64,000 bases of DNA, taken from NCBI GenBank assembly GCA_016785955.1, contig JAEUWH010000042.1, forward strand, positions 1 through 64,000. Reading direction: 5' to 3'. Under the pieces are notes generated by a model, which searched no databases, was not told the DNA's origin, and saw nothing but the letters and a program-made list of their open reading frames with translations. A program made the translations under genes and the position numbers. This DNA is from Pseudobdellovibrionaceae bacterium. GTDB lineage: Bacteria; Bdellovibrionota; Bdellovibrionia; Bdellovibrionales; Bdellovibrionaceae. Positions 1,800 to 57,350 of this stretch are shown here, one piece after another; positions within the stretch are counted from its first letter, which is position 1; the number at the start of each line of letters is the position of its first letter.

Positions 1800-1807
1800 T
1801 TAGATTG

Positions 1808-13504: not shown

Positions 13505-13519
13505 AACGTGGAATGTAAT

Positions 13520-22546: not shown

Positions 22547-22552
22547 GGAAAC

Positions 22553-23464: not shown

Positions 23465-24283
23465 ATGAATTTTGCAGGATTACTTGGTGCTTTTGCTGCG
23501 GTTGCAATTACGGTTTTTGCTATTCTTGACTCTACAAAGAATCCAAAAATTTTCGCCGATCCTCATGGGATTATCATCGTTGTTGGTGGTACGATCACGG
23601 TGGCGTTGATTAGTTTTTCGTTCAAGAAACTTTCTGATGCATTTAAAATCGTGGTACGTAAAACTTTGGGTCGCGAGCGTGATAACTATATCGATACGAT
23701 CAAACTTATTGTCAAATTGGCGGATGCTTACCGTGTAAATCCAAAAGGCTTAGAGGCTCAATTGCCAGCCAACGCGCACCCATTTCTGCGTGATGCGGTT
23801 CAAATGATTTCAAACTTCGGTTTTACGGCGGATGAAATGAGCGACGTGCTGACAAACTCGATGAAGGGCAAGTTAAAACGTGACGAAGAAGAATTGAAAG
23901 TATGGCATACCATTTCGCGATTTCCACCGGCATTCGGTCTGTTGGGCGCGACATTGGGAATGATCTCATTGCTTCAGACATTGGGCGAGCCCGGTGCGCA
24001 ATCGCGAATTGGTCAGGCAATGGCCACGGCATTGATCGCGACATTTTACGGTCTGGTCGTAGCCAATCTTATATTACTTCCCATCAGTGAAAAACTTGGC
24101 GCGGTAGCCAGTTCTGACAAAGTCATGAGGAGCATCATCAAAGATGGTGTGATCATGATCGTCGAGAAAAAACATCCGACTTATATTGAGGAATTTCTAA
24201 AACAATTCTTATCTCCTACGCAAAGAGCACAGGCGGGAAGCGATTCTGGTGGCGGCAGTGCGGGGGGCAAAGTTGCAGCATAA
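23465..24283 (+). CDS. motA: MotA-like stator protein (locus A)
   Basis: Proton- or sodium-driven stator subunit of the MotA/PomA family, 272 residues. Four membrane helices are visible (about 3-20, 35-52, 155-172, 187-207) with a long cytoplasmic loop between the second and third. Family motifs: GGT at 41-43, FLRDAVQMI with the loop arginine (109), FPPAFGLLGATLG at 153-165 with the conserved proline, and MATALIATFYGLVVANLILLP at 186-206 with the second proline. The Ser/Gly-rich tail is unusual. The ribosome-binding site AAAGGGG is strong. motB overlaps its 3' end. MotA forms a pentameric ring around a MotB dimer and acts on FliG; the only FliG-like protein in this operon is the membrane-anchored one at 1808-3577. 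Confidence 0.92.
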   Translation: MNFAGLLGAFAAVAITVFAILDSTKNPKIFADPHGIIIVVGGTITVALISFSFKKLSDAFKIVVRKTLGRERDNYIDTIKLIVKLADAYRVNPKGLEAQLPANAHPFLRDAVQMISNFGFTADEMSDVLTNSMKGKLKRDEEELKVWHTISRFPPAFGLLGATLGMISLLQTLGEPGAQSRIGQAMATALIATFYGLVVANLILLPISEKLGAVASSDKVMRSIIKDGVIMIVEKKHPTYIEEFLKQFLSPTQRAQAGSDSGGGSAGGKVAA

Positions 24284-25298
24284 AAAGTCCCGCGTCACAG
24301 AAGAGGAACATTCGCACCCGATGGTGCATGATGAGTCCAATTGGCTGGTATCCTATGCGGATATGATGACTCTTTTGTTTGGCTTTTTCGTATTGATGTA
24401 CTCGTATTCCAAAATCGACGAGGAAAAATTTGAGGTCGTTAAAAAGGACCTCGTGAAATATTTTGGTGGAAAGCTAAAAGAAGCCAATGGGGCATGGACT
24501 TTAAAAAAGACCGTGGATGAGAAGTTAAATGCGATTCTTTTGAATGGCGGCCAGAAGGAACAATTGTTCAATATGGAAGTTCAAGATAATACCTTAAAAA
24601 TTATCTTTCAAAGCAAAGTTCTTTTTGGGTCGGGTTCGGTTGAATTGACAGCAAGTTCGGCGAAGGTGATTGACGAGGTTGCGCGTGAACTTAGAAAATT
24701 TCCTTTAGAGTCTATTGAGGTCGAAGGGCATACGGATATCGATGCGGTTCAAAATCCCTATTTCCCATCTAATTGGGAACTCTCTGCGGCGCGATCGTCG
24801 CGGATAGTGCGTCGTTTGATTGAAAATCAATTGCCGGATAATATATTGATTGCAACGGGCTATGGTTCGTCTCGGCCGCAGGTGCCACATTTTGACGAAA
24901 ATAAGCAAGTCATTCCTGAAAACAAAGAGAAAAACCGACGAGTCGAGTTGCACGTTAAATTAAAACCCGAGGCCACATATGATTCTAAAGATCTAGCCAT
25001 GATGGGTTTTAAAGTTAAACAATCTCCCGCGGAACAAGCCGAGGTTGAAAAACGAGAAAAGGAAGCTTCGGATTTGAAAACGCGTTATGCTGAATCGCAA
25101 AAACGTTTAGATGAAGTGAATCAAAAACTGCGTGAGGCTCAAGAGCGCGAAAAATCTATCAAAGAGATGGAGCGTATGGCTAAGAAAGCCGAAGAGATTG
25201 AAGCTAAAATTAAGTCTATTCAAGAAAAAACGAAGGACACGGTTGAACGCACAAAGGATTTGAAAGATGAAGCCCGGGATCCAGCGCAAGCAAAATAG
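24249..25298 (+). CDS. motB: MotB-like stator protein with a coiled-coil tail (locus A)
   Basis: MotB-family subunit, 349 residues. A cytoplasmic N-tail is followed by one membrane helix at about 34-52 with the ion-carrying aspartate Asp38 (SYADMMTLLFGFF). An OmpA-like peptidoglycan-binding domain covers about 115-237 (VEGHTDIDAV, NWELSAARSSRI, GYGSSRPQ, NKEKNRRVELHV). Unlike flagellar MotB, it continues about 85 residues beyond the OmpA domain as a highly charged predicted coiled coil (about 262-345). The start is uncertain: GTG at 24249, GTG at 24258 or TTG at 24273 (preceded by a G-run) are all possible and all overlap motA. The next gene begins inside its 3' end, so the genes are coupled. 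Confidence 0.9.
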   Translation: MAAVRGAKLQHKKSRVTEEEHSHPMVHDESNWLVSYADMMTLLFGFFVLMYSYSKIDEEKFEVVKKDLVKYFGGKLKEANGAWTLKKTVDEKLNAILLNGGQKEQLFNMEVQDNTLKIIFQSKVLFGSGSVELTASSAKVIDEVARELRKFPLESIEVEGHTDIDAVQNPYFPSNWELSAARSSRIVRRLIENQLPDNILIATGYGSSRPQVPHFDENKQVIPENKEKNRRVELHVKLKPEATYDSKDLAMMGFKVKQSPAEQAEVEKREKEASDLKTRYAESQKRLDEVNQKLREAQEREKSIKEMERMAKKAEEIEAKIKSIQEKTKDTVERTKDLKDEARDPAQAK

Positions 25299-41829: not shown

Positions 41830-43191
41830 TCATTCACCGCCATGTTTTCTTGGTTCTATCCATAAGTATTTCGAGCTTTTTAATATAGGAACTTTTTTAA
41901 TGTCGGGTTGGATTAGGTGCCGTTCTTGAGTCCCTTGATTGGACGTAATCTCTAAGACTTTAAGTTCACCAGTTGAAGGATTTTCTACCCATTGTAAATC
42001 ATTGCCATAAATTTGATTCAGATCAATAGCGGCATGACCCTCTTGGGTGACGGTAACTTTAAATGTTTGAAGAGTTCCTTTAAGCCAGGGAGGAGATGAA
42101 ATTTCCGCTTCCCATTCTCCGAGTGGAATTTGAGTTTGAATCTGATTTAAATTCAGTTCCGCAGTTTGATTGTGTTCACTGGCTTCTCCATGGATTTGCT
42201 TGGTCTGTCCTGTCGGTTTTAATTTAAAATTTAAAATCGGGGCATTTATCGTGACCGGAAATTCTGATATTTTCATAAGCCTTGCCCATGGAATTTTTGT
42301 AAAAGATCCTTTTGGGAGTTCCAAATCAAGTTCTGAGCCATTTTTGTTTTCGTAAGAGAGATGGTATTTCCCAGCTAAAAGTTTAACTGAAAATGGTCCC
42401 AGCCAGTTTTTTTGAAAACCATTTGCGGTGGCGCTAAATTTCGCAGTTGAATCAGCGCCGGTAATTTCAAGTAAAGCTTCTTTTTCGGGATCAAAGTTTT
42501 TACCTTTGTTGCCATCCTTGTCAGACACAGACTTATTTTTTCCTTTGTTCATCTGTGATCTTTTCGCGCCTTTAATATTAGAAAGAGATTTTTCATTTAT
42601 AAAATCTTTTTCATCAATATTACTAAGTTGGCTGTTTTTTAAGAGAGCTTGTAAATCACCACCTTTAACGGCTTCAGAAACATTGATATCGATATTTTTC
42701 AATTTTAAATTTTTAAAACAAGACACTTTTCCGGCATCTTGCTTTAGATCAAAGCCAATAATGTGAAGTTTTATTTTAGTTTTAGTATTTTTAATTTTAT
42801 CATCAGCTTCCTGAAGAGTCTTACATGGATCTTGATTACAACTATCAGCACCATCGGTTAAAGCTACTAAAGTTTTTGTATTGGTTTTATCGGCTTCTTC
42901 TACTAACTTCTTTAAGCCTAGTGCTAATGGGGTTTTGCCGAACGGCCCCACTTTTAATTGATTAATTTTTTGACTAAGTTCCTTTGTTGTTGAAGTCATG
43001 TTAAATAAATCTTTGCAGCCCATTTTAGGATTAGATCCAAAAATAAAGGCACTGCTTTTAGTTTTTGGATCTTCTGTCGATAGTAGTGCTGTGAGTTCTG
43101 TTTTCAAAACATCAATCTTAATTTTTTGATCTACTTTTTGGTCCATAGATCCAGAATAATCAAGTAGAAACAAAAAAGCTAAAGTTTTCAT
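41830..43191 (-). CDS. Von Willebrand factor A domain protein (locus B), no clear export signal
   Basis: 453 residues. The VWA domain begins at the very N-terminus: MKTLAFLFLLDYSGS places the metal-site DxSGS at residues 11-15, so the hydrophobic start is strand 1 of the fold, not a typical signal peptide. Other metal-site residues: GKTPLAL threonine and LTDGADSC aspartate. The sequence DGADSCNQDPCKT matches the locus A VWA signature. The C-terminal 230 residues resemble beta-sandwich domains (LLAGKYHLSYENKNG; IPLGEWEAEIS). Its ATG overlaps the stop of the upstream barrel gene (ATGA). Without a signal it would remain in the cytoplasm, unlike its locus A counterpart, unless exported by a non-standard route. 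Confidence 0.8.
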   Translation of the reverse strand: MKTLAFLFLLDYSGSMDQKVDQKIKIDVLKTELTALLSTEDPKTKSSAFIFGSNPKMGCKDLFNMTSTTKELSQKINQLKVGPFGKTPLALGLKKLVEEADKTNTKTLVALTDGADSCNQDPCKTLQEADDKIKNTKTKIKLHIIGFDLKQDAGKVSCFKNLKLKNIDINVSEAVKGGDLQALLKNSQLSNIDEKDFINEKSLSNIKGAKRSQMNKGKNKSVSDKDGNKGKNFDPEKEALLEITGADSTAKFSATANGFQKNWLGPFSVKLLAGKYHLSYENKNGSELDLELPKGSFTKIPWARLMKISEFPVTINAPILNFKLKPTGQTKQIHGEASEHNQTAELNLNQIQTQIPLGEWEAEISSPPWLKGTLQTFKVTVTQEGHAAIDLNQIYGNDLQWVENPSTGELKVLEITSNQGTQERHLIQPDIKKVPILKSSKYLWIEPRKHGGE

Positions 43192-44267
43192 TTAAAAAGG
43201 TCCTCTCCGATTCTTAAAGTTGTAAATAGCATGGTTCTTGTATAGGTGATCTCAGAAGTCCCATCGCTAGATAGACTAGAATCAAGACTGGCCTTTTGTT
43301 TTGATAAAGAATAGTTAGCGCCACCACATGCCTGAAAATTTATATCGAACAACGAAATAATTCCTGTGCATTTTTGCAATTGCAGTTTGTACAAATCAAT
43401 TGTTAAAGGTGCTTGGCGGAAATCTTGAGTTTCTTTCAAGTTTTGAGTTAAGCTTGTGTGCAGACCAAGTAGCCAATGTCGATATCTTATATTCCAACCT
43501 ATGAGGTAATTTGATTCAGAGAAGGCATAATGGCTCAAAGAATTAAATGAGCTTGTATACGCCTCATTGGAAATCGTAAAAACAGGTCCCTGTTTAAAGT
43601 TTTTATGAGGTATCAAAAAGTAAATAGGTATCTCCATAAGTTGATGAAAGAATGTAGTTTGATCTTTCGTTTTGAACTGAGAACCCACAAGTAAATTGAG
43701 TTCCATTTCTGGTAAAATCCAAAGATTAAATACTCCAAAAGGTTTTCCCTTCATAAGATTACCAACAAGCTTCAGGCTAGGAAATAAAGAGTTTGATTGA
43801 AATTGTGACTGAATGGCCGTGTTTGAAGTTGTTTTTACGCTTGAAAAATTGAAACCCCCACCGATGGAATAACCAAAATTGAACGGCATAACGGCGTACT
43901 CGGGCGGAAGAGCCTCTGCTTCCGGTTTGACTTCTGTTTCGGGGGCAGATTTGCCAGCCTCTACAACATAAGGTTTAATTGGAAGGACAGCGATTAACAG
44001 GGGATAAATGGGATCAGTTTTTCTGACAATTTTAAGGGAAGTCTTTTTCACTATTTCAGGCTTTAGGTCGGGAATCCAAGCTTGACCTTCTTTTAGGGAC
44101 ACAAATTGGCAATAGGGAATACAAGAATAAAGAATTCCTCTAAAGTCTTCTCCATAGTAGACCTCTATGTTTTTTTTATTAAGTAGAAGCTCATCCGTTT
44201 TAATCATCTGGGCAAAGATACTGGTGGAAAACAACAGAGTAAAAACTAAGGAAAAAAAATCTAGCAT
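43188..44267 (-). CDS. Outer-membrane protein with predicted beta-barrel (locus B)
   Basis: 359 residues. Signal peptide of about 19 residues (FTLLFSTSIFA). A periplasmic N-domain (about 20-105) is followed by a Pro/Glu-rich linker (ESAPETEVKPEAEALPP-like, about 105-122) and a barrel region with alternating strands (FGYSIGGGFNFSS; FGVFNLWILPEMELNLLVG; YLIGWNIRYRHWLLGLHTSL). The plan and its place next to a VWA gene match 19947-21122 in locus A. It is transcribed away from 44377. No family recognised. Confidence 0.65.
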   Translation of the reverse strand: MLDFFSLVFTLLFSTSIFAQMIKTDELLLNKKNIEVYYGEDFRGILYSCIPYCQFVSLKEGQAWIPDLKPEIVKKTSLKIVRKTDPIYPLLIAVLPIKPYVVEAGKSAPETEVKPEAEALPPEYAVMPFNFGYSIGGGFNFSSVKTTSNTAIQSQFQSNSLFPSLKLVGNLMKGKPFGVFNLWILPEMELNLLVGSQFKTKDQTTFFHQLMEIPIYFLIPHKNFKQGPVFTISNEAYTSSFNSLSHYAFSESNYLIGWNIRYRHWLLGLHTSLTQNLKETQDFRQAPLTIDLYKLQLQKCTGIISLFDINFQACGGANYSLSKQKASLDSSLSSDGTSEITYTRTMLFTTLRIGEDLFK

Positions 44268-44376: not shown

Positions 44377-44991
44377 ATGACCAGAATTACAAAGGAAATA
44401 TACATTTTGATGGTGGCTGCGTTATTGTCGTCGTGCGCCTCTAAAATGATGATTCAAACGGATCCGCCACAGGCAGAAATCTATGCCTCTTCAGAAGGGA
44501 AATCTGAAAAAATCAAATTAGGACAAACCCCACTAGAAATTACAGAGGTTCAGATCAGTGATCAGTTGAAGGTATCTCCAGAAAATACGGAATGGATATT
44601 TTTGACGATTGAAAAAAAAGATTACGAAAAAAGATTTTTAGCTTTGCCTGCGAATCGCTGGGGATCGTTAACAAAAAATATTCGTCTTCAGCTTAAACCG
44701 ATGGAAGACAACGAAACTGTTGTGACAAAAATGCTAAAATATTTTTTTAATGCTAAAAAATTTGCGGAAACTAAACAGTATGATCAAGCTCATTCTGAGA
44801 TTGATAAAGTTTTAACAATCGATAATAAAATGATCCAGGCTTTGAGCATGAAGGCGGGAATATATTTTCTACAAGGAAATTTGGATGAAGCAAAAGTGCT
44901 GTATAAAAAAGCACTTGAAATAGATCCTGGATTTAGTGATGCGATTCAAATGCTAGAAAGAATTCAGAACAAGGTAGGTTCTAGTCAATGA
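44377..44991 (+). CDS. PEGA/TPR lipoprotein (locus B)
   Basis: 204 residues. Signal peptide with lipobox LSSC (Cys20). A PEGA-like domain (IQTDPPQAEIYASSEG, GQTPLEI, FLTIEKKDYEKRF) covers about 25-110, and two TPR-like units cover about 125-195 (AKKFAETKQYDQAHSEIDK, LSMKAGIYFLQGNLDEAKVL). Same plan as 22553-23452 but shorter, lacking the long Pro/Lys linker. Its 3' end overlaps the FliG-like gene by 4 bases, which ties the lipoprotein directly to the motor gene. GCCGAACT sits 7 bases before the ATG but is only a weak sigma-28-like element. Confidence 0.78.
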   Translation: MTRITKEIYILMVAALLSSCASKMMIQTDPPQAEIYASSEGKSEKIKLGQTPLEITEVQISDQLKVSPENTEWIFLTIEKKDYEKRFLALPANRWGSLTKNIRLQLKPMEDNETVVTKMLKYFFNAKKFAETKQYDQAHSEIDKVLTIDNKMIQALSMKAGIYFLQGNLDEAKVLYKKALEIDPGFSDAIQMLERIQNKVGSSQ

Positions 44992-46883
44992 AAAGACTTG
45001 GAATCTTTTTTTGTCTAATTTCAATTTTTTTATTTATGAGCAGCAGAGCGCTTGGCGTCACCCAGCTTTCTTCTGATGCTTTAGACGTAAAAAATAAATT
45101 AGAGATAGAGATTCAAAAAAGTCTAAATAATCTAATTTCAACGCAGCTATCGCCTGAATCTTTTTCGCTTGGAGTAAGAGTACAACTGACTTCTTTGAAA
45201 CCGCCAACGGCAAATGATGCAAAAAAGGTTGATGAATTACCCATTGGTATGAATTTAGGTGCTATTGATGTACGCGAGTTAGTCAGTTCTTACGAAAAGC
45301 AAATCGAAGAATTAAAACTAAAAAAAGAAGATAGAAAAGAAGATAAAAATCAATTTCAACTAAGTTTGATAGAAGTGACCGCAGGCCTGGATGAGAGCTA
45401 TGGAGATGAATATATCAATAAATTCAAGTCTTGGTTGCAAAACAAAATGAGAGCTGAATATGGAAGCATAGCTAAAGCGACCGTTAACAAATTAAATTTG
45501 AAAAAGTTAGCTCCTAAAGAAGATGAAAAATCTAAGCCCGCGGATAAACCTGAATTGAAACCAGAACCTACTTTATGGGATCGAATTAAGGATTTTATCC
45601 CAATCATGATGGCTTTGATTTTTTCATTGTCGCTGTTACAGTTTGGAAGAACCATCAAAAATGGACTATACCAAATTGCCTCTGCTCAGAAAACTTTGAC
45701 CTTGGAATCTAAAAGCGAATGGTTAATTGGCGCCGGAAAAAATGCGGAAAAGCTATTGAGTGGAGGCTCTGGTAGAAATGCAGAGGATCCTAATCAAGTC
45801 AAACGCATCGCTTATGCTATGGATGAATTCGAAAGAATTACGGGCAAGATTGCATTTGTGTGCCTTGAGTTAGGTGATAGATTGAATGAGTTAGTTCGGG
45901 TATGGATTGACTCTGGTGATGACGGATTTATTAAGACAGCTTTATTAATCGATACTATTGTGAACGCTCGTGAAAGGATCATGTCCAAAACAGGCGCCAT
46001 TGCTCCCATCAAAATCCCTATTGATGATCAATTAGTCAAGATGAGTGATGAAAATTTGTCGGAGGCTTATAGTCAGGTTTCTAATATGCCTATTCAAGAT
46101 AAGGTAGAAACACTAGATAGAATCTATTGGGATTTAGTTTCGTTTAAAACTTTAGGGATACATTCCTTAAGGAAACCGTTCGATTTTTTACAAAGTCTAC
46201 CAAAAGAGAACATCATAGAACTACTAGGTACTCAAAAAAAGGAAGCTCAGGCTTTGGCATTGGTGTACTTGCCTAAAGAAACTAAGACAGAAATTTTGAA
46301 TGAGTTTCCAGAAGAAAAAAGAACAGAAATGCTAAAAAATATGTTGATTCAATCACAATTTTCCCAAAAAGAAATCTGGGATATTGATATGTCGGTGAAA
46401 GTGGCATCATTAAATAATACCTTGGGGCCTATAGATAAAATGGTAAATCTTTTTCCAAAGACTTTAGAGGTTTTACAAACTTTGGATCATGTCAGTGAGA
46501 TTAGGATTTTAAGGCAAATTACGAATCAGTTGCCAGACGGTGGAGTGGCTCTAAAGGCTCAGTATATAACATTTGCCTTTATTGATGAGTGGAAAACAGA
46601 TTATATACGAAAATTAGCACAGCAAGCAACTGGGGACGAGATCTTAACTTTAGTAAGACTTATTCCAGAGGCTAAGGAGTTGGTTTTATCGGAATGTCCT
46701 CCGAAAATTAAAATGATTGTAGAAGATGATTTGAAATTAAATACGAAAGTTGATGAGGCAAATCTAAATAAAAAATTAAGCAGCCTTAAATCAAAATGGA
46801 ACAAGTTGCTAGTGTCTGAAAATATTCCTTTTTCTAAAGTGATCAAACCTAAAGATCGAAAGGAGATTAAGGATGCCGCCTAG
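44988..46883 (+). CDS. Membrane-anchored FliG-like protein (locus B)
   Basis: 631 residues with the same topology as 1808-3577: signal peptide (about 1-23), periplasmic domain (24-195; SPESFSLGVRVQLTSL recalls the FliF-type strand pattern, followed by a Lys/Glu helix at 103-120), one membrane helix at about 203-220 and a cytoplasmic region. Residues about 330-625 resemble FliG: LGTQKKEAQALALVYLPKE corresponds to the middle-domain pq-iAl-l motif, and EILTLVRLIPEAKELVLSE with IVEDDLKLN corresponds to the C-terminal torque domain. An extra helical segment (about 225-330) sits between membrane and FliG part. The match is weaker than in locus A. It is co-transcribed with MotA and MotB. Confidence 0.66.
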   Translation: MKRLGIFFCLISIFLFMSSRALGVTQLSSDALDVKNKLEIEIQKSLNNLISTQLSPESFSLGVRVQLTSLKPPTANDAKKVDELPIGMNLGAIDVRELVSSYEKQIEELKLKKEDRKEDKNQFQLSLIEVTAGLDESYGDEYINKFKSWLQNKMRAEYGSIAKATVNKLNLKKLAPKEDEKSKPADKPELKPEPTLWDRIKDFIPIMMALIFSLSLLQFGRTIKNGLYQIASAQKTLTLESKSEWLIGAGKNAEKLLSGGSGRNAEDPNQVKRIAYAMDEFERITGKIAFVCLELGDRLNELVRVWIDSGDDGFIKTALLIDTIVNARERIMSKTGAIAPIKIPIDDQLVKMSDENLSEAYSQVSNMPIQDKVETLDRIYWDLVSFKTLGIHSLRKPFDFLQSLPKENIIELLGTQKKEAQALALVYLPKETKTEILNEFPEEKRTEMLKNMLIQSQFSQKEIWDIDMSVKVASLNNTLGPIDKMVNLFPKTLEVLQTLDHVSEIRILRQITNQLPDGGVALKAQYITFAFIDEWKTDYIRKLAQQATGDEILTLVRLIPEAKELVLSECPPKIKMIVEDDLKLNTKVDEANLNKKLSSLKSKWNKLLVSENIPFSKVIKPKDRKEIKDAA

Positions 46884-47451
46884 TTTTACAAAAATCCTAG
46901 TCTCACTTTTCATTTGCCTACTTTCATTACATGCTCGGGCAGGATTTAGAATCACGGGTGGATTAGGGCTTGGATCGTCCTCATCGAAAAATGAAGTTTC
47001 CCAAAGTGAAGGTCCTTTAACAGATATTTTCACAATAGAGAGTGTTGTTCATTCGCGTTTAATTATTGGAGCAGAACATTTAAGATCCCTTAACTTGAGT
47101 CCTATGAGTACGGGAATAAGTTTTACCGGAATTTTTTTTAGGAACTACTTAAATTCGGTACCAACTCCTTATTATTCAGCGGATGCCGTTCCTTATCATC
47201 TGATTGTAACCAGAGATTTATGTTTTTTCACGGGCGTTGGAATTGGTATCGCACAGTCGAGCCTTTTACCTGATGCTGATGGCAAAAGTTCGAATGCCGC
47301 AGGTTTTTACTTAAGCCCTAGGGCCGGGTCCGAGTTATATTTAACAAAGTCTTTGGGCGTTCGAGGCGAGTTAATGATTGCCATGACAGTCGTTGGCAAG
47401 GGAACCGTTAACTCGGTTTCATTGATTGGGTCTTTATTTTATTCTTTTTAA
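46873..47451 (+). CDS. Small outer-membrane beta-barrel protein (locus B)
   Basis: 192 residues with a signal peptide (LVSLFICLLSLHARA) and a barrel-like mature part rich in Gly, Ser and aromatic strands (GFRITGGLGLGSSSS; LCFFTGVGIGIAQSSL), ending with the classic C-terminal aromatic strand SLIGSLFYSF. The start overlaps the upstream FliG-like gene by 11 bases with a strong AGGAG..AAGG region. It lies between the FliG-like gene and motA, so it is likely a physical part of the same assembly. The closest look-alike in the window is 28409-29029. Confidence 0.72.
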   Translation: MPPSFTKILVSLFICLLSLHARAGFRITGGLGLGSSSSKNEVSQSEGPLTDIFTIESVVHSRLIIGAEHLRSLNLSPMSTGISFTGIFFRNYLNSVPTPYYSADAVPYHLIVTRDLCFFTGVGIGIAQSSLLPDADGKSSNAAGFYLSPRAGSELYLTKSLGVRGELMIAMTVVGKGTVNSVSLIGSLFYSF

Positions 47452-47463
47452 AGGAGAGAAAAA

Positions 47464-48246
47464 ATGAATTTTTCATCTTTAGTTGGTATTTTTTTAGCGG
47501 TGGGAGTGATGGTAGGTACTATCATGATGTCTACCAAAAACTCAAAGATTTTTTTAGACACTCATGCCTTTATGATTGTTATAGGTGGAACTTTAGCGGC
47601 TAGCTTGCTAAGTTTTTCCGGAAAAAAAATTGTCCAATTGACTAAGGTTTTTTTTAAAAAAGTCTTAGGAAAAAACAACGAGATTTTTTTGGCTATCGCT
47701 GAAATTGTAGATTTAGCTAAGGGATATCGTGATAATGACAATTATTTAAGAGATAAAATGAAGAGTTTAAAAACACCTTTTTTGGCAGATGCTGTTGAAA
47801 TGATGACCGAAGGCGGTATTGATCCCGAGGATTTGGATAAGATATTAACCAAACGAGCTATCGCAATGAATCACCGTTATGAAGAAGATGCTGAAATGTT
47901 TAAAACTCTTTCCAAGTTTCCTCCAGCGTTTGGTTTACTTGGGGCCGTTATTGGTATGATTACATTGATGCAAGGATTGGGGGGGGCCGATGCGTTTGCG
48001 ACGGTGGGACCTTCTATGGCCGTAGCACTTGTGGCGACCATGTATGGTATCGCTGTTGCCAATTTCTTTTTCTTGCCTTTGGGTGAAAATTTATCGCGGG
48101 TTAATAAACAAGATCATATCGTCAGGCAGATGGTGGTAGATGGGATTAAATTGATAAGGCAAAAAAAGCATCCGTTGGTTGTTGAAGAAACTTTGAAGTG
48201 TTATTTGTTGCCGGCGGAACGATCTAAAATGAAAAAAGCAGCGTAA
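47464..48246 (+). CDS. motA: MotA-like stator protein (locus B)
   Basis: 260 residues, four predicted membrane helices. It aligns by eye with the locus A MotA: MNFSSLVGIF, STKNSKIFLDTHAFMIVIGGT, FLADAVEMMTEGG, SKFPPAFGLLGAVIGMITLMQ with the conserved proline, and ATMYGIAVANFFFLPLGE with the second. It lacks the Ser/Gly tail of the locus A protein. The loop arginine seen in the locus A copy (FLRDA) is alanine here (FLADA). AAAGGAGAG precedes the ATG at a good distance. motB follows after 32 bp. Confidence 0.92.
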   Translation: MNFSSLVGIFLAVGVMVGTIMMSTKNSKIFLDTHAFMIVIGGTLAASLLSFSGKKIVQLTKVFFKKVLGKNNEIFLAIAEIVDLAKGYRDNDNYLRDKMKSLKTPFLADAVEMMTEGGIDPEDLDKILTKRAIAMNHRYEEDAEMFKTLSKFPPAFGLLGAVIGMITLMQGLGGADAFATVGPSMAVALVATMYGIAVANFFFLPLGENLSRVNKQDHIVRQMVVDGIKLIRQKKHPLVVEETLKCYLLPAERSKMKKAA

Positions 48247-48278: not shown

Positions 48279-49139
48279 ATGGGTGTTGCCAAAAAATGGA
48301 GCCAAGATAAAGAGGAACAGCAAAATCATTCATCTTTAAATATTGTGGAATCAGAATCTTCAGATCACGATGACTACCACGAAGATATAAGTGGTGGGCA
48401 TGGCAAGAAAGTAGACGAAGGCGAGGGGCCGTGGTTAGTCAGTTATGCTGATATGATGACTTTGCTTATGGGGTTTTTTGCATTGATCGCGAGTTTTTCA
48501 AAGCCGGATGCTAAAGAATTTGATAAAGTGGCTGCGGCCTCTAGTAAATTTTTTGGTGGAAAATATGAAGCCCCTTATGAAAAACTGTCTCAATCCATGA
48601 GTAAAGTGATACGGGAGAATAAATTAGAAGATAATGTTAAAATTGAGGTTGGGCCCGAGGGCGTTGAAATGACCTTTACTGGAACTATGTTCTTTGATTC
48701 TGGGGGAATAAAGGTTAAAGAGGAAGCTGCGGAATTACTGAATAAGCTTTCCGGCGCCATTAGAAAAGAAACATCAAATTTTAGTGCCATCATAGAGGGA
48801 CATACAGATAATACTCCTATTAATCACGAAATTATTGCCAGTAATTGGGAGCTTTCTGGGATTAGAGCTGCCAGAATCGCCAAAATTTTTGAAGACAATG
48901 GCTTTTCAAAGAAACAATTAACTATCATAGGTTGGGGGGAAACGAGACCCATTGTTAGTAATGAAAATTCTGATGGAACACCTAATTTAGAAAATAGAAC
49001 AAAAAATAGGAGAGTTATGATTAGGGTTTACAAGGAGTTCGAAAACAAATCTCAAGCACGAAGTGCGGCATCGGCGGTGAGTTCAGCAATCCCTTCAGAA
49101 GCGCGAGAAAGTAAAAAAAGCGAAAGTGTTTCAAAATAA
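48279..49139 (+). CDS. motB: MotB-like stator protein (locus B)
   Basis: 286 residues. A long acidic, histidine-rich N-tail (about 1-50) precedes the membrane helix with the ion-carrying Asp58 (SYADMMTLLMGFF). The OmpA-like peptidoglycan-binding domain spans about 120-255 (IEGHTDNTPI, SNWELSGIRAARIA, GWGETRPI, NRTKNRRVMIRV). A short Ser/Ala-rich tail follows; there is no coiled-coil extension as in locus A. The ribosome-binding site CGGGAG is clear. A perfect 20-bp palindrome begins 14 bases after the stop. Confidence 0.92.
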   Translation: MGVAKKWSQDKEEQQNHSSLNIVESESSDHDDYHEDISGGHGKKVDEGEGPWLVSYADMMTLLMGFFALIASFSKPDAKEFDKVAAASSKFFGGKYEAPYEKLSQSMSKVIRENKLEDNVKIEVGPEGVEMTFTGTMFFDSGGIKVKEEAAELLNKLSGAIRKETSNFSAIIEGHTDNTPINHEIIASNWELSGIRAARIAKIFEDNGFSKKQLTIIGWGETRPIVSNENSDGTPNLENRTKNRRVMIRVYKEFENKSQARSAASAVSSAIPSEARESKKSESVSK

Positions 49140-49264: not shown

Positions 49265-49299
49265 GTTGTAACATGATAGTGAGCTTAGGGAGTGTGAAA

Positions 49300-51837
49300 G
49301 TGGCGGTCCATAAAATGATGGCTGAGTGGCTTCCGTCTAGAAAAATAGTTATTTTGTTTTTAGGGTTGGTCGTCCTTTTTTCGACGACGTCTTGCCTTCA
49401 AGAGCGTGGAAAAAAAGAAGTGTCAGTCTCAGTTCCGAGCTGGTTTGAGGGCGTGAAAGAAGTAAAAAATCTTGGAGGAAATCCGGCTTCGGTTAAAATA
49501 ACTTGGAATGCCGCTGAAGTTCCGGTCACGGCTTATCGTGTATACTCTTTAATATATAATACAGAAACAAAACTTAATGAGTGGTCACAGATTGACGAGG
49601 TGACTTCGGATCAGTTTTCTTATGTGCATTCAGAATTAAGTTCTGGGCAGGTTTATACCTATATGGTTCGAGCTGTTAATTCTTCAGAAGTCGAAGACGT
49701 GAATTCAAAACAATTGGCGACAGTGGCTTTTGAAGGAATTTCTTCTGTGCGAGTCACCGGTGCGAACACGGCAACAGTGTCATTGAACAATGGGACTGGC
49801 GCTTTTGATGAGGTTCGGGTTTACGCTCAACCGGTCAGGGCTGGCAGTGGAAAAGTTCTTATTAAGGCGATAAAAGGGAATGTAACGTCAATTGATGTTA
49901 CCAATTTGAATTCTGGAGTAAAATACAAATTTTTTGTAAATGCGTACATGAGTTACCTGGCTGGCGAAGATGGTAACGAAATATATGTTGAAGGTAAAAC
50001 TAATAGCGAAACTTTTGGTTCGGGATCAAATAATGATACAAATTATTCTTATCGCGGAGTTATGGCGGTGCAGGCTTTCGGTGATGCGCCCAATGCCCCT
50101 AAAGACCCTAAGGCAAGAATGGTCAAACTGGTTTGGAATCCTTTTAATGGAGCATCTAGTTCTACGAAATATCGAGTGATAAGATCTTCTACCGCTTATA
50201 CTCCTGATCTAACAACCGCGCTAACCTGTTCGTCATCCATGGCGCAATCATGTATTGTTAGTTGCACTAATACAGGGACCGGTACCCAGACGTGTGATGA
50301 TATTAACGTGGCGTCGCCGCCGATGACCTACAACTATGTCATCACGCAGGTTAAAAAGAATTCATCTACCAACGAAGAATGGGTGGAAGAATTACCTGAC
50401 AGTAATGCAAATGAATTTTATGTCAAAGTGGCGATTCCTTCAGATTATATGGTTTTAGTTCAAAGAGATGCTGCTAATTTTGAGATGTGTAAAATGTTGG
50501 GACAGACGTCTAATCCTAGAAAAAATCAAAGATGTTCTTATACCGGAATTGCGGCGAGTCCCTATAATTCGGGACCCAACAAAGCGGCCTTGAATTTTGA
50601 TAGTGGATATTATGATTTTGGATATAACCTTTTTGTTGATCGCTACCGCTTAGCCTGCAATTGGACGAGGGTTTCACCCTCGTGTGGGCCGAATGGTTGC
50701 ATTGGTGTTACAGGCAACTCGTCAACAGCTGGGGCGCCTGATAACTCTTTAGGGCAGCCTGGAGACGTCTATTTTGCACTGAATCCATTTTATGGTGCCA
50801 ACTGTTATTATAAAAATGGAACGAGTTGGATTTCTACGGCCGCTCTAACAACGGCAGATCAATTTAGAGTGGTTGCTAGAATCGATCCTGGAGAGGACGG
50901 AAAAAGACACTACCCTCAGTTGAATGGTTTTGGTCAGGCCCAGGCATATAATTTTTGTAGTAATCAATCTTCGGCCTACGGCAATAAGCGATTAATGAGA
51001 CGACGAGAATACGTGCATGCCTCGGCTTTTGCAACGTTACCTGGTGAGCCTAATGCTGTTTTTGATGAAGTTGCTGAATATAATTTAAGGGAAGGAATTT
51101 ATAGCTCAGCGCTTGTAACAGGTGGGCAGTTGCCTGGCTATCGTCGATGTGCCTCAGGGTCAGCGGCAAGTATGTTAACATTGCCAACCACTGTTGCTGA
51201 TGTTGTAGCACCGACTAATTACAGATCCCAAATGTTTACTGCCTATACGCCGGGAATACTTAATTATATGAATTCGCCATATTTTATCGGAACACCAGCT
51301 ACGGAGAACTGTGTCTCTCGTTGGGGAGCTCAAGATCCGATATCTCATACTTCATTCGATGGAAACAACACCGTCATGGCGGATACTTTTGTTAGAACGA
51401 ATATAGGTACAAATCCTCCGGTATTCTCGCCCGTGGCATCGGATAGTGATTCTGGAGTTATTTACGATTGGGGAAATTATCAATTTGATGGTGTTACGAG
51501 TGGCTTGACACAGTATGATTCAGCAACGTTTTTTAAAAGCACAGCCATTAATTCGACGACTATGACGACTTTACCCAAATACATTTTGACTATGGGTTTA
51601 GCGCTGATCAATTCTTCTTTTTCAGCTTATCGAAACTCTTCAGATCTTATTTATAATGGTACACTTGGGCCAAGCGCTTTTAATGGTGGAAGCAACGCAA
51701 CTCTAACACACGTCTATGATGCAACTACGGCAAGATACACTATGATGGAAGGGACCAAGAATAGATTTTCCTACACTATTCATCCTGATATTTCTAGCAC
51801 ACGAATTAAAGTATGGTGTGCGGTGGAGGCTGAATGA
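49300..51837 (+). CDS. FN3 lipoprotein with cysteine-rich lectin/FGE-like C-domain
   Basis: 845 residues. Lipobox TTSC (Cys32). Two FN3-like domains cover about 45-240 (GGNPASVKITWN, VYTYMVRAVNSS), then an FN3-like or linker domain. From about 390 to the end a cysteine-rich domain follows (LVQRDAANFEMCKMLG, YDFGYNLFVDRYRLACNWT, KRLMRRREYVHASAFA, YRRCASGSAA) that recalls C-type-lectin/FGE-fold domains. I start at the GTG at 49300, which has AGGGAG 7 bp upstream; the ATGs at 49273 and 49315 are alternatives. The first would be almost leaderless behind the sigma-28-like element. The next gene is a tandem paralogue overlapping by 4 bases. Likely a surface adhesin. Confidence 0.75.
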   Translation: MAVHKMMAEWLPSRKIVILFLGLVVLFSTTSCLQERGKKEVSVSVPSWFEGVKEVKNLGGNPASVKITWNAAEVPVTAYRVYSLIYNTETKLNEWSQIDEVTSDQFSYVHSELSSGQVYTYMVRAVNSSEVEDVNSKQLATVAFEGISSVRVTGANTATVSLNNGTGAFDEVRVYAQPVRAGSGKVLIKAIKGNVTSIDVTNLNSGVKYKFFVNAYMSYLAGEDGNEIYVEGKTNSETFGSGSNNDTNYSYRGVMAVQAFGDAPNAPKDPKARMVKLVWNPFNGASSSTKYRVIRSSTAYTPDLTTALTCSSSMAQSCIVSCTNTGTGTQTCDDINVASPPMTYNYVITQVKKNSSTNEEWVEELPDSNANEFYVKVAIPSDYMVLVQRDAANFEMCKMLGQTSNPRKNQRCSYTGIAASPYNSGPNKAALNFDSGYYDFGYNLFVDRYRLACNWTRVSPSCGPNGCIGVTGNSSTAGAPDNSLGQPGDVYFALNPFYGANCYYKNGTSWISTAALTTADQFRVVARIDPGEDGKRHYPQLNGFGQAQAYNFCSNQSSAYGNKRLMRRREYVHASAFATLPGEPNAVFDEVAEYNLREGIYSSALVTGGQLPGYRRCASGSAASMLTLPTTVADVVAPTNYRSQMFTAYTPGILNYMNSPYFIGTPATENCVSRWGAQDPISHTSFDGNNTVMADTFVRTNIGTNPPVFSPVASDSDSGVIYDWGNYQFDGVTSGLTQYDSATFFKSTAINSTTMTTLPKYILTMGLALINSSFSAYRNSSDLIYNGTLGPSAFNGGSNATLTHVYDATTARYTMMEGTKNRFSYTIHPDISSTRIKVWCAVEAE

Positions 51838-54311
51838 TAAAGAGTAACTTTTTGAAAGTTATTTTTATTTTCATCAGTATTTTTATGACGTCTTGTTTTG
51901 ATAATGCTGGAGGCGAGATTTCTAGCTCGTCTACAGCGCGGGACGAGTCTAAGAAGAGTCTTGTTAATTCTTTGAATTGGTCTGGAGCCAAAACAGGATT
52001 GAATAAAATCACAGGCGTATTAATCACTTGGGAGTTACCATCTGTCGAGGTGACTTCATTCAAGGTCTACAGATATTCAGGGAAAAATTTAAATTTGTTA
52101 GCTACACTTTCAAATACAACAAAGGGTTATATTGATGGTTCTGTCACTTGGGGTGTTATCTATACCTATATCGTTAGAGCTGTGGATAAAAATGGAGTTG
52201 AAGATGATAATACCAATAAAGTTTCCGCACTGTCCTGGTCTGGAGTGGCATCGGCTCAAGCGCTGAATCGCTCAACAATTCAGGTCAATTTTTCTAATGC
52301 CGTTGCCGTTATTGACGAGGTCAGGATTTATATTCAACCGGCATCTGGTGGCGATAAAGAGTTGATTAAAACAGTAACGGGATCTGATGTTTCTACTGAA
52401 ATTTCCGGTTTAAAAACAGGATTTAAATACAAAGTGAGTGCTCAGGCATATGTAGCCAGTTTGAAAAAAGAAGACGGTAACGAGGCCACCTTTGAAGTTT
52501 CAACTAATACACTCGGTTATCATGATGAAAATGCGTCCATTTCAAAATGGTTGAATGTTGTCAATCTTAGGGCCTTTGGTGCTTCTTCTGCGGCCCCAGT
52601 CCATCCTGTATTTCCAGAAAGGACACCGACAGCCGAACTAGTAGAGCTTTCTTTTAAAAGTTTTAATGGGATGGATGCTGGGACAACCTATGTGGTGACA
52701 CGAGTTTCTGAAAACACGTATTTAGATACGTCGTCCGAGGTGCCCTGTGATACGACAACAAAAACCTCGTGTCGGGTTAAGTGTTCGTCAAGCTCCTACA
52801 CCATGACTGGGTCTGGAATTTTAACTTGCAGGGACGAAAAAGCCGGGCCTTCACCAGCCCGTTACAGATACACGATGTCTGTTCAGCATTCCAGTGGTAC
52901 TTTGACTTGGGTGGAGCCACTACCCAAAGACAATTTGGATAATTTTAGCGTGGTTGTTCCAATGCCGCCAGCCAATATGATTTTAGTTCAAAGAGATGCT
53001 GTGAATTATGAAATGTGTGGACAGATGAATGCCGCTGTTGATCCTAAAAATCATAATCGGTGTCCTTACACAGGAATCGGGGCGATACCCTACAATTCAG
53101 GGCCAGGAAAACCAGCACTCACCTTTGTATCAGGTTTCTATGATTTTGGTTACAACTTGTTTGAAGACCGCTTTCCATTAGGTTGCAATTGGACGAAGGG
53201 TTCAGCTGGGGGGAAATGTGGTTCCGGGCAGACGACAGGTGACTGCATAGGATCCAGTGACGTTGCCAACGTTCTTCCTAGTAGTACGATTGGTAGTGAC
53301 GGGGATGTTTTTTACATGATGTGGCCTAGCGAGAATTTGTGTTTATATAAGTACGGTACATCCTGGTTAAGGCCGTATCAAATATTCACGACAGTTCCCG
53401 ACAGCAAGACAGCCTACGCCAAAATGTACAGATCAAATCCTAACCAAACAGATAATGGAGGCGTCCTTCCAACCCAAAGGGAAGTTACAAGTCAGTATGC
53501 CAGTGCTCTTGTGTGCCAGGCTCAAGAAGATAGTGTTTATGGAAGTAAAAGGATACCTAGGATGAGAGAGTTTCGAGCCATGCAGGCATTTCCAACCGTA
53601 GCCGGTGAACTTTATGGTATGACCTACAGTGCCGCTTCGACCGTGTATAGTGGGAATTCCTTTAACTCTTCTAGTGGATTCAGATGTCCTAGTGCTATTG
53701 GCACAAACTACACATGGCCAGCAGATGTTGCGGGTTTATTCACGGGGCTTAATGAATTAATGGGAGTCTATTCCAACTCTGTTTACCAAGGAAATGTTTT
53801 TAAAATAAACTCCCTAGCGAACGTCGACTGCCAATCTAGATATGGTGCTCATCAAATGCATCTTGGTACCTGGTGGTGGACTAGCGATGTATTTACATGG
53901 AATTCGACAACAAAAATTGTGACGGGAACGAGTTCAGTTATAGATGATGGCAATCGTGATTTATTAACAGATATAAATGGAGGTCAGACAGGATACCAGA
54001 TGAATTATACCACGGGAACTCCGAATGGTACGACACAATATCTTTATGGGATTAGTTCCAATACCAACGTTTATTTCATGTCGATTCCCTTGGGAATGCC
54101 CATATTAACATCGTCGGCGACCTCTTATTTATCAAGACTTTTATTTACAGAGAACTACGGTCCCACAATTTATTTCGCACATACAACCACCGCTACCTAT
54201 ACTGATAGGGGTGTTCGGACCCATGGTCGTTGGTCTACAAGTTTAGATACGACTGCTTTGTCAGGCGGATCATCACAGACCAGTACACGATGTGTGATGT
54301 CGGCGGACTAA
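51834..54311 (+). CDS. FN3 lipoprotein with cysteine-rich lectin/FGE-like C-domain (tandem paralogue)
   Basis: 825 residues; lipobox MTSC (Cys21). Same plan as the preceding gene: FN3-like domains (KITGVLITWELPSVEV, VIYTYIVRAVDKNGVEDD), then the cysteine-rich C-domain with nearly identical landmarks (LVQRDAVNYEMCGQMN, YDFGYNLFEDRFPLGCNWT, ALVCQAQEDSVYGSKR). The ATG overlaps the upstream stop (ATGA). The pair mirrors the tandem FN3/FG-GAP pair of locus A but with a different C-terminal module. A duplication followed by divergence is the simplest history. Confidence 0.75.
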   Translation: MIKSNFLKVIFIFISIFMTSCFDNAGGEISSSSTARDESKKSLVNSLNWSGAKTGLNKITGVLITWELPSVEVTSFKVYRYSGKNLNLLATLSNTTKGYIDGSVTWGVIYTYIVRAVDKNGVEDDNTNKVSALSWSGVASAQALNRSTIQVNFSNAVAVIDEVRIYIQPASGGDKELIKTVTGSDVSTEISGLKTGFKYKVSAQAYVASLKKEDGNEATFEVSTNTLGYHDENASISKWLNVVNLRAFGASSAAPVHPVFPERTPTAELVELSFKSFNGMDAGTTYVVTRVSENTYLDTSSEVPCDTTTKTSCRVKCSSSSYTMTGSGILTCRDEKAGPSPARYRYTMSVQHSSGTLTWVEPLPKDNLDNFSVVVPMPPANMILVQRDAVNYEMCGQMNAAVDPKNHNRCPYTGIGAIPYNSGPGKPALTFVSGFYDFGYNLFEDRFPLGCNWTKGSAGGKCGSGQTTGDCIGSSDVANVLPSSTIGSDGDVFYMMWPSENLCLYKYGTSWLRPYQIFTTVPDSKTAYAKMYRSNPNQTDNGGVLPTQREVTSQYASALVCQAQEDSVYGSKRIPRMREFRAMQAFPTVAGELYGMTYSAASTVYSGNSFNSSSGFRCPSAIGTNYTWPADVAGLFTGLNELMGVYSNSVYQGNVFKINSLANVDCQSRYGAHQMHLGTWWWTSDVFTWNSTTKIVTGTSSVIDDGNRDLLTDINGGQTGYQMNYTTGTPNGTTQYLYGISSNTNVYFMSIPLGMPILTSSATSYLSRLLFTENYGPTIYFAHTTTATYTDRGVRTHGRWSTSLDTTALSGGSSQTSTRCVMSAD

Positions 54312-54314
54312 AGT

Positions 54315-57300
54315 ATGTTCAAGAAGCAAAAATGGATTTTTTCACTAATGATTTTTATTATTGTAGGTGTAATATCCTGCAATAAAGCGTCGCTAAATAG
54401 TGAGGCTTCAAAAAATACCTTAAGTGATGAAAACTATTATTTGCCAGCCTCTTCTGAGGCACGGATATACTGGCTAGATACAGACCTGGGTACCTATATT
54501 ACACAGTTGTCACCTCTCAATGGACAATTGATACTCCCAAAATCTTTATTGGTAGGTGATTACGGATCTAGAGAAAAAAACACGGAACCTGTAACTTTAG
54601 ATTTAATAGCTAAAGTTTATTATTCCAATCACCCTTCAGGTGATTTCTATTTTGAATCTCCAGTGTTGGGAACCAACTTAGTTGTGAGTAATGTAACGAC
54701 GGCACTCAGTTGGTTTTTAAAGTATAGTTACTATGGGCAAAAAATAAAAATTTCAAAGCAATCTTTTGATCTGTTAACTTTAACTATAGAAGTGAAATGT
54801 ATTGAATGCCGAAAAAAGACAAATACAGAAATTTTAAATTTAATTAAAAGTGATATTTCAATATCAGAAATGATAAGGGACGTTTTGATTAAAGAAAACC
54901 CGAATCTTAATTTCAATTCGGCGGGTTTGAAGGCTGGAAATTGGACAGAACCAAAACCGAATTGGGCTTGGAGTACACCGATTTTATCCCTTCATGGGAC
55001 TAGTTCGAAGGATTCTGATGAAAGTAAAACGATCAAGCTGTCTTGTTTATACGTAGACCCACTTAATAGCACCGTCAAAATATTTCCCAAAGCATGGAGT
55101 CATGTATTTAAATCTGTGACGACATTGATAGATGCCAATAGTAATGATATTGACTATTCTTTTTCATACGAAGATAGTGGCATTCACGAATTTCGGCCGT
55201 TGTTTTCAGCTCCGGTCGTTCAAGAAAATATTTCGTTTATTTTTTCTGTCAATGATAGTAATCGATCTCCTCGATGCGATAATCCTTTGGTTATTCATGC
55301 GCGGGCAAATGTTTTTAATTCTGTACCATTAAGTCCTTTCTGTAGTGATCCTGACAAGGACGAGACCGGTTTAGCTTACACTCTTTCTAGTGGCCCTAAC
55401 GGTTTAGTTATCACTAATACGGGCCTGGTGAATTGGACACCTTCAAATTCGTTGTCAACGGGTAAAATCTTTTTCACTGTGAATGATTCTAAATTGGCTG
55501 TATCAAATGAATCCGCTATGATCGTTGTTGATCCGGATAATGCGCCTACATTTACAAACGTTCAAACCGACTATCATTTTGTTGAAGGCACTGAAACGAC
55601 TTTCACTGTTTCAGCTAAAGACATAGATGGTGATCCTTTAGAGTTAACAATTGAACCTGTGGATCCTATAAAAACGGGCTTTCCAGATGGTGCGGGAAGC
55701 CTATCAGCTATCACGAGAACATTTTTAAATGGCGAATATACGTTTACAGTTAAGTTCAAACCCAGTTACTTACAAATGATTGGTGGGGACGGAATTTCAA
55801 AAGTAAGATTTTTTATTCACTATGAATCACAAGACGGAAAATTTGATTCGTCGATTCGGTTTGATGAAAGAGTTATCAATTTCAATGTCACAAATGTTGA
55901 TGATCCACCACAGTGGGATGTCCAGCCTATGGATTTTAATGCGGTGGAAGGTGTTAATTTTAATGGCCTAAATATCGGTCATGCGACAGACCCTGCGTTG
56001 AATAAAACGGCTATCACTTATTCGATTGTATTTATTGGTGATGATCATTGTCGATGGCCAGGAATAACTTTCACAAAAGATGTTTCTGATAATGCTTTTA
56101 TGTGGGGAGTGCCACCATATAATGCTTATGCCGAATGTTCATTTTACTTTAAAGCCACTGATGCCAATGGTCTTTATGGTGAATCGAGTATTATCATGAT
56201 CACCACAGACAATACGAATCAGCCCATCACTTTATTAGCGTCACCCACGACAGTGGTAAACGGAGTAGAGGGCAAATTAATGAGTATTAGTCTTGATGAA
56301 ATGTTTCAAGATCCAGATTTGGAAACTAATCCGATTGATACCAGAGAACTGTTAGTTTACGACTGTATGACTGATACGGATAACAATGGAACGTATGAAT
56401 CTAACTGTATGGCGGTGGGATTGAATATTAGTTTTAGCTCTAATTCTTTGACTGCCAGCTGGACACCACCGGCGCTATCAGCAGGAACTTACAAAATACG
56501 TCTGACAATTACGGATGTAGGAGGGGCTTCTGCCACCAATAACTTTGATCTGGTGATTGCTGAATCAGCGACCCCGATGGTTTTATCGGCGTGGCATTTA
56601 GGAAATGTTTCTACAGATTTTACAGTTGCCGAAGGGGCAACTGTACCGCTAATTTTAAAGGCTGAGGCAGCGAGTGTCCGTGCGATTGATAGTTATGATT
56701 TTATCGTAAGCGCCCCGACATGTAATATTGTTGGTGGTTCTGGCGCTTGCAGTGCTTCTTTGATTGTTTCTCCAGGAACCTTGGGGGGCCAAGGCACTAC
56801 AGATCTTACGTTTACACTTAATCCTGCCTATACCGATTCGGATACTTATTTCCCGGCCACTACGCGCAGGTATGCTATATCTTTTTATCTGCAGAAAAGT
56901 GATGATCCTACAGTATACAGTCAGCACAGTATTAACGTGACTGTGTCAAATACAAACAGAAATCCTACCGCAATCAACATAACAAAAAGCAGTTTTGGAT
57001 GTACGGGAAGCATAGCTAACGCTGACTCTACGGCCTTCACGGTGTGTGTAGATGCATCCCAAGATAAAAAAGTAGGTAATAGCTGGTCAAAAACTTATTC
57101 AGTTCCTGTATTGCCTGTGGATCCAGATGGTAACAATGATTCTTACAGCTTTGCCTTTCAAGACTCGTTGGCTCCAGGAAGTGTTACAGACGGAGTTTGG
57201 AATTTCAAATTGCCAAGCTGTATGAATAGTGCGTCTACCACGATGACAAGGACTTATGATCTTCAGCTGTCAGATGGGCGTGGTGGAACTGTAGTAAGAC

Positions 57301-57350
57301 AAATTATCCTGAAGATAGTTAAAGGTTCAGCGTCGCTATCATGTATGTAG
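54315..57350 (+). CDS. Large Ig/cadherin-like lipoprotein (locus B)
   Basis: 1011 residues; lipobox VISC (Cys22). The N-terminal 330 residues are unlike known domains. From about 340 on, cadherin/PKD-like units with calcium-type signatures repeat: PFCSDPDKDETGLAYTLSS, VSAKDIDGDPLELTIEP, ATDANGLYGESSI, FQDPDLETNPIDT, PVDPDGNNDSYSF. Two segments show the put-Ig type phrase LVNWTPSNSLS/LTASWTPPALS. It is the counterpart of 13520-19900 but half its size, without baseplate-J-like repeats and without the C-terminal propeller. It ends locus B. The 5' part is very AT-rich (14 G or C in the 60 bases from 54781, counted by hand). Confidence 0.72.
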   Translation: MFKKQKWIFSLMIFIIVGVISCNKASLNSEASKNTLSDENYYLPASSEARIYWLDTDLGTYITQLSPLNGQLILPKSLLVGDYGSREKNTEPVTLDLIAKVYYSNHPSGDFYFESPVLGTNLVVSNVTTALSWFLKYSYYGQKIKISKQSFDLLTLTIEVKCIECRKKTNTEILNLIKSDISISEMIRDVLIKENPNLNFNSAGLKAGNWTEPKPNWAWSTPILSLHGTSSKDSDESKTIKLSCLYVDPLNSTVKIFPKAWSHVFKSVTTLIDANSNDIDYSFSYEDSGIHEFRPLFSAPVVQENISFIFSVNDSNRSPRCDNPLVIHARANVFNSVPLSPFCSDPDKDETGLAYTLSSGPNGLVITNTGLVNWTPSNSLSTGKIFFTVNDSKLAVSNESAMIVVDPDNAPTFTNVQTDYHFVEGTETTFTVSAKDIDGDPLELTIEPVDPIKTGFPDGAGSLSAITRTFLNGEYTFTVKFKPSYLQMIGGDGISKVRFFIHYESQDGKFDSSIRFDERVINFNVTNVDDPPQWDVQPMDFNAVEGVNFNGLNIGHATDPALNKTAITYSIVFIGDDHCRWPGITFTKDVSDNAFMWGVPPYNAYAECSFYFKATDANGLYGESSIIMITTDNTNQPITLLASPTTVVNGVEGKLMSISLDEMFQDPDLETNPIDTRELLVYDCMTDTDNNGTYESNCMAVGLNISFSSNSLTASWTPPALSAGTYKIRLTITDVGGASATNNFDLVIAESATPMVLSAWHLGNVSTDFTVAEGATVPLILKAEAASVRAIDSYDFIVSAPTCNIVGGSGACSASLIVSPGTLGGQGTTDLTFTLNPAYTDSDTYFPATTRRYAISFYLQKSDDPTVYSQHSINVTVSNTNRNPTAINITKSSFGCTGSIANADSTAFTVCVDASQDKKVGNSWSKTYSVPVLPVDPDGNNDSYSFAFQDSLAPGSVTDGVWNFKLPSCMNSASTTMTRTYDLQLSDGRGGTVVRQIILKIVKGSASLSCM

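Follow-up and report, generated by a model that had tools for sequence, protein, structure and literature searches.

Introduction

In the flagellum, the C-terminal tail helix of FliF binds FliG, and the FliF ring contains about 34 subunits. To our knowledge, FliG is known only as a part of the flagellum. In Salmonella, a FliF-FliG fusion is motile and assembles rings (PMC6079021). Hence, a one-piece architecture is mechanically plausible. The open literature that we searched contained no description of a natural FliF-FliG fusion accompanied by MotAB; an earlier description may exist in subscription journals or preprints. Here, we describe a protein predicted to be such a fusion, rotor B, and its relative, rotor A. 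Both are encoded within the window, meaning the whole stretch of 64,000 nucleotides that was analysed.

Results

Rotor B is encoded in a conserved operon

The rotor B gene sits on contig 98 of a 4.34-Mb draft genome. Its open reading frame is single and intact. The features of loci A and B are:

1805-3577, plus strand: rotor A, same plan as rotor B, 590 amino acids (FliG_M 2e-10; FliG_C 6e-10; AF2 model; FliF RBM3 Z 12.2; FliG Z 15.6)
22529-23452, plus strand: TPR lipoprotein of locus A, weak PEGA match (present in 20 of 22 A loci)
23465-24283, plus strand: MotA-A
24249-25298, plus strand: MotB-A
41830-44267, minus strand: VWA protein and partner, divergent from the operon (VWA_2 4e-9)
44377-44991, plus strand: TPR lipoprotein with a lipobox-like LLSSC, overlapping the start of rotor B (TPR_2 8e-9)
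44988-46883, plus strand: rotor B, predicted FliF(RBM3-TM-tail)-FliG fusion, 631 amino acids (open reading frame, profile comparison, AF2, structural alignment)
46873-47451, plus strand: small putative outer-membrane protein, overlapping the end of rotor B (without Pfam match)
47464-48246, plus strand: MotA-B, stator subunit of full-length flagellar type (best PDB match 8ucs MotA, residues 7-258, E 7e-32; both conserved prolines kept)
48279-49139, plus strand: MotB-B, with a MotB plug (SYAD motif) and OmpA domain (Pfam MotB_plug 7e-14, OmpA 3e-16)
49273-54311, plus strand: two Fn3-type putative surface lipoproteins (fn3 1e-8 in the first)

Compared with a same-genus homologue, rotor B differs at 79, 33 and 303 sites in codon positions 1, 2 and 3, respectively. 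Hence, this is a real, selected gene. The codon changes comprise 264 synonymous and 84 nonsynonymous, a pattern indicative of purifying selection.

The TPR lipoprotein was found in 28 of 29 B loci, and is adjacent and co-oriented in 25. Similarly, the small outer-membrane-protein-like gene is present in 28 of 29 loci and next to the rotor in 25. Cadherin-like neighbours are conserved far less than these two genes. The Fn3 lipoproteins are rarely kept with rotor B (3 and 1 of the 29 fetched loci) and VWA occurs in five of 29. Promoter and terminator scans did no better than scans of shuffled sequence. Around both rotor loci, at window positions 3580-19900 and 49273-57350, lie genes for lipoproteins or exported proteins of very large size and of FG-GAP, Fn3 or cadherin-like type. 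Their products are candidate surface loads.

Rotor B is a full-length homologue of rotor A

An earlier note, made from the DNA letters, had described rotor B as a FliG-like membrane protein, strongly diverged from the locus A protein on the same plan. We compared the two using 23 A and 29 B sequences gathered from the phylum. The proteins align by hhalign at 99.6% (P 3e-24) over 538 columns, with 13% identity. Hence, the deep divergence on a shared plan was borne out, and the profile comparison that might have refuted any relation instead found one. Reversed-alignment controls for hhalign gave about 1% or less for A-B and for FliG, and at most 1.9% for FliF. The layout read earlier was also recovered by hydropathy and AF2: a signal peptide (hydrophobic at 6-24), a periplasmic domain, a single transmembrane helix (202-220) and a FliG part.

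The note had further claimed that rotor B has some 100 additional residues separating the membrane from the FliG part. This did not hold. The distance from the end of the transmembrane helix to the start of FliG_M is 160 residues in rotor A of the window and 177 in rotor B, and the family medians are both 163 (n = 23 for A, n = 29 for B). The supposed insert is the equivalent of the FliF tail and FliG-N, common to A and B. The surplus length of B is mostly periplasmic; the transmembrane helix starts at median residue 200 in B compared with 175 in A.

Rotor B joins a FliF-like half to a FliG-like half

The domains of rotor B are assigned as follows:

44988-45056, plus strand: signal peptide, about residues 1-23 (hydropathy peak 6-24)
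45069-45503, plus strand: RBM3-like periplasmic ring-building domain, residues 28-172, alpha-beta-(insert)-beta-alpha-beta (AF2; FliF RBM3)
45591-45647, plus strand: single transmembrane helix, residues 202-220 (AF2, hydropathy)
45789-45920, plus strand: FliF-C-tail-like helix, residues 268-311, with family-invariant W306 (hhalign to FliF tail 65.6% versus 1.4% reversed)
45921-46172, plus strand: FliG_N-equivalent helical region, residues 312-395 (structural alignment of 312-621 on FliG 5-328, 8umd_B, 236 residues; weak by sequence)
46173-46412, plus strand: FliG_M-like ARM domain, residues 396-475, EHPQ absent (4fq0_C, Z 11.0, 2.1 Å over 80 residues)
46452-46868, plus strand: FliG_C-like domain, about residues 489-627 (structural alignment; PDB profile match; acid at the D288 position in 29 of 29 B rotors)

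In the AF2 model, the periplasmic domain consists of H29-51, E59-69, E123-134, H140-161 and E162-168. This alpha-beta-insert-beta-alpha-beta order is the topology of a ring-building motif. Mean pLDDT was 71.5, and about 78-88 in RBM3 outside the 71-120 insert. The whole-model pTM was 0.34, so the arrangement of domains is not fixed by the model. For residues 28-172, the best structural match was RBM3 of FliF (8z5v_A, Z 12.7, 2.2 Å over 93 residues); the best unrelated fold was OsmC/Ohr (Z 8.9). Rotor A, with its own alignment and its own AF2 model, also matches FliF RBM3 and FliG, including MotA-bound FliG (8ucs_H, Z 10.9).

Sequence profiles gave a graded picture. Rotor A aligned with FliF at 92% by hhalign, in one register across RBM3, transmembrane helix and tail. 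Rotor B reached only 23%, in the same register as A. With the FliF-tail helix alone, scores were 66% for B and 62% for A (1.4% and 0.2% reversed, respectively). RBM3 alone gave only 12-16%, and proof by sequence only failed. Hence, the RBM3 assignment, like that of FliG_N, rests on structure plus register. RBM1 and RBM2 are absent; the RBM1-2 part of FliF matched at only 0.2-0.5% by hhalign. Between signal peptide and transmembrane helix there are only about 175 residues, occupied by one ring-building motif. The model thus places a FliF-type RBM3 fold, then a C-terminal transmembrane helix and tail, in rotor B, with a strong structural match and a weak sequence match for RBM3 in isolation.

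For the second half of the protein, Pfam FliG_M (2.8e-6 at 407-468), the match of the rotor B family profile to PDB FliG 1lkv (E 1.3e-12, M and C domains) and hhalign against local FliGs (97%) all agree on the FliG likeness. FliG_M and FliG_C occur in FliG order. The NCBIfam fliG model matches residues 395-584; rotor B scored 22.5 bits against a TIGR00207 equivalog cut-off of 226.7. The FliG_N region had no sequence support, its hhalign score of 7% being equal to the reversed control. The overall rmsd of rotor B 312-621 on FliG is large because the domains are arranged differently. The EHPQT motif is present in 35 of 36 local FliGs and in none of the A or B rotors. An acid is kept at FliG position 289 (23 of 23 A rotors) or 288 (29 of 29 B rotors). 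Taken together, the models and alignments indicate that in rotor B the C-terminal half of FliF (RBM3, transmembrane helix, tail) is naturally fused to FliG N-M-C. Hence, "FliG-like" was right about the relation to FliG and understated what the proteins are.

The rotor family is wider than A and B

In a tree with FliG, the rotors A and B form separate clades. FliG, A, B, C and D each group as one clade, with SH-aLRT supports of 99, 98, 95, 99 and 99, respectively; FliG stands apart from the rotors. Supports for the deep branching order of A, B, C, D and FliG are only 0-89. Hence, we make no claim as to whether the fusion is ancestral or derived. The C rotors (749-809 amino acids) and D rotors (575-585 amino acids) are encoded beside or near MotAB. 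Further rotors exist beyond A-D, unplaced in the tree. We conclude that an old, functional rotor family with specialised members, conserved across Bdellovibrionota genomes, is well supported. The note had proposed an old, functional family and counted two members; C and D rotors are also MotAB-linked. A contig scan using an alignment of close relatives returned three relatives and one weak Clostridium match limited to the FliG part.

Several other loci were observed. In family C (L290-L295), the periplasmic parts are long, MotAB lies beside the rotor and the FliG 281 position is acidic (D/E) in six of six. Family D genes (L298-L301) are near MotA-B-like genes, with three separate copies in genome G154. 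In some genomes, the gene immediately upstream of rotor A encodes a second one-TM paralogue, which has an A-like periplasmic domain and a FliG part that is slight or missing (L157 10857-12359, L160 16297-17325, L162 8619-9608). The genome of the window also encodes, on contig 55 (L108 1171-1917), a 248-residue protein with a FliG_C match (6.8e-10) outside a flagellar context.

Each rotor is paired with its own MotA

The alignment of MotA-B to flagellar MotA (8ucs) runs end to end. In a survey of 290 genomes, the 23 that carry rotor A are exactly those that carry MotA-A. Rotor B was found in 31, MotA-B in 32 and both in 29. Fisher P values for the rotor-MotA pairing were 1e-34 (A) and 3e-34 (B), with kinship among the 290 genomes ignored. 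Three genomes have MotA-B only. In two of these, G154 (three copies) and G029, a divergent D rotor occurs with a TPR gene or MotAB nearby; no rotor was seen near MotA-B in the third, G049. For 11 of the 29 B loci, the neighbourhood fetched around the rotor did not include MotA. In a quick tree of 71 MotA sequences, with some long branches, a single clade (SH-aLRT 97) unites the MotAs linked to rotors of families A to E and excludes the sampled flagellar MotAs, including those of the same genomes. Co-occurrence and tree thus agree with the suggestion that each rotor co-evolves with the MotA of its own locus, and indicate that each rotor family has a dedicated MotA lineage.

At the rotor-stator interface, the MotA R90 position is basic in 21 of 21 A and 21 of 23 B systems. 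The E98 acid is lost in A and B; flagellar MotAs of the phylum also vary at these torque-interface charges. The A and B systems lack the R281-E98 charge pair seen at the flagellar interface. A search of both for charges that had switched between FliG position 281 and MotA position 98, so as to compensate, found none.

Rotor B occurs in two genomes without detectable FliF and FliG

With regard to INDEPENDENCE from flagellum, FliF was found in 24 of 26 tested B genomes; none was detected in G109 (97% complete) or G185 (99%). Neither genome gave a FliG match, in a search that detects FliG in most other genomes. Both retain rotor B with its TPR and outer-membrane partners, and MotA-B is on the rotor B contig (56% identity in G109 and 60% in G185). 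G109 also has a second locus of the same plan (L310 7642-12054), encoding a TPR-like lipoprotein, MotA, MotB, a 554-residue one-TM protein and a small outer-membrane-protein-like protein. For the 554-residue protein, profile comparison matched neither B nor FliG and gave only a weak hint (19.5%) to the periplasmic domain of A.

Genome G073 is apparently B. bacteriovorus HD100. An open reading frame of 101 residues at 96873-97178 coincides with the place expected from the published Bd0108 breakpoint (near 97050 in BX842601). Here, rotor A spans 2913.4-2915.2 kb and its linked MotA 2919.3-2920.1 kb, on the minus strand. In the fetched locus (L148), rotor A occupies 8924-10654, MotB 13851-14807 and MotA 14813-15691. 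From position and gene order, the A-locus MotAB of HD100 appears to be MotAB2 (MotA2-Bd3021, MotB2-Bd3020). According to the title of a 2011 paper (reference 41 of PMC11323537), three MotAB products contribute to motility of the single flagellum. This title counts against full independence from the flagellum in HD100. In a two-hybrid assay, FliL-Bd1076 bound MotB3 and not MotB2 (PMC11323537).

Discussion

Rotor B probably serves as the rotor subunit in a rotary machine that MotAB drives independently of the flagellum. In the machine that we infer, copies of the fusion would form an inner-membrane ring that has RBM3 on its periplasmic side and the torque domain, FliG_C, on its cytoplasmic side. 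This ring would be turned by the MotA/MotB stator of its own system. Motion would probably be relayed across the periplasm by the TPR lipoprotein and the small outer-membrane protein of the same operon. The final load could be adhesin movement, gliding or envelope work, for which the surface proteins are candidates only. Since RBM1, RBM2 and EHPQ are absent, the rotor should house no type III export gate and carry no switchable FliM/FliN ring.

A flagellar role must be weighed against this proposal. The fusion could join or modify the MS/C-ring of an ordinary flagellum, as an accessory or alternative rotor, with its MotAB being another type of flagellar stator. Most carriers are flagellate, as the FliF count illustrates, and the literature regards MotAB2 of HD100 as a stator of the flagellum. 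However, rotor and MotA are retained in G109 and G185, where neither FliF nor FliG was detected, the rotors have no EHPQ motif for FliM, their MotA lineage is apart from flagellar MotAs, and FliL-Bd1076 did not bind MotB2 in the two-hybrid assay noted above. We therefore consider an accessory role unlikely.

Rotation itself might be dispensed with if the protein were a fixed membrane partner, gating or braking the MotAB channel, or a TolA/TonB-like force transducer, with FliG_C no more than a surface for binding MotA. One transmembrane helix and a compact periplasmic domain would fit an ExbBD/Tol-like device, and the R281-E98 contact is lost. Yet a mere clamp has no need of the RBM3 ring-building fold and FliF tail, both of which are kept, and several separate families retain FliG M-C. 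A fixed partner is quite unlikely on these grounds. More distant is the notion of a generic helical-repeat (ARM/MgtE_N-like) membrane protein that resembles FliG only in its common superhelical fold. It draws on a weak Pfam MgtE_N match (5e-4) and an MgtE structure low in the fold list. Instead, the FliG profile match covers the M and C domains in sequence, residues 395-584 fit the NCBIfam fliG model, and the rotor co-occurs with MotA among genomes. Hence, we regard a generic repeat protein as very improbable.

The preferred reading, an independent MotAB-driven rotor, can be extended to a proposal to which we give even chances. Bdellovibrionota would possess a superfamily, comprising at least A, B, C and D, in which each one-piece FliF-FliG rotor has its dedicated MotAB and powers a rotary machine independent of the flagellum. 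Among the three "flagellar" MotAB pairs of the model predator HD100, one would work in such a machine. The family may also have kept a version of the flagellar rotor that is free of export. If so, such a rotor, made in one piece, served by its own stator and lacking an export apparatus, would amount to a minimal rotary motor. This would bear on how the flagellar rotor and stator joined the export machine, and the three-stator model of Bdellovibrio motility would need re-reading.

How does the system compare with those described? A likeness to Zorya (ZorAB) is confined to MotB-B, for which the best ZorB model gave 5e-18. At E 0.01, no PADLOC model recognised MotA-B or the rotors. As there is no ZorA match, we rejected a Zorya identity. 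Agl-Glt and generic ion transporters (AglRS, TolQR, ExbBD) are similar, going by the literature, in being ion-driven and envelope-spanning. We know of no FliG or FliF part in any of them. The A subunits of the AglRS/TolQR/ExbBD type have condensed cytoplasmic domains and no flagellar torque interface (PMC12505986). The MotAB/PomAB stators are closer, sharing a full-length MotA with a long cytoplasmic loop and both prolines, the MotB plug Asp and the OmpA domain. Unlike flagellar stators of this kind, the rotor-linked MotAs form a separate clade, have lost E98 and are tied to a fusion rotor rather than to flagellar genes. The rotors differ from flagellar FliF and FliG in lacking RBM1/RBM2, EHPQ and MFXF, in having an N-terminal signal peptide, in lying outside the flagellar operon and in occurring without flagellar FliF/FliG. 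Like these proteins and the Salmonella fusion, they have RBM3, a transmembrane helix, a tail helix and the FliG N-M-C order. The rotor-stator system is a variant of the flagellar rotor-stator kind, and possibly a new class of machine.
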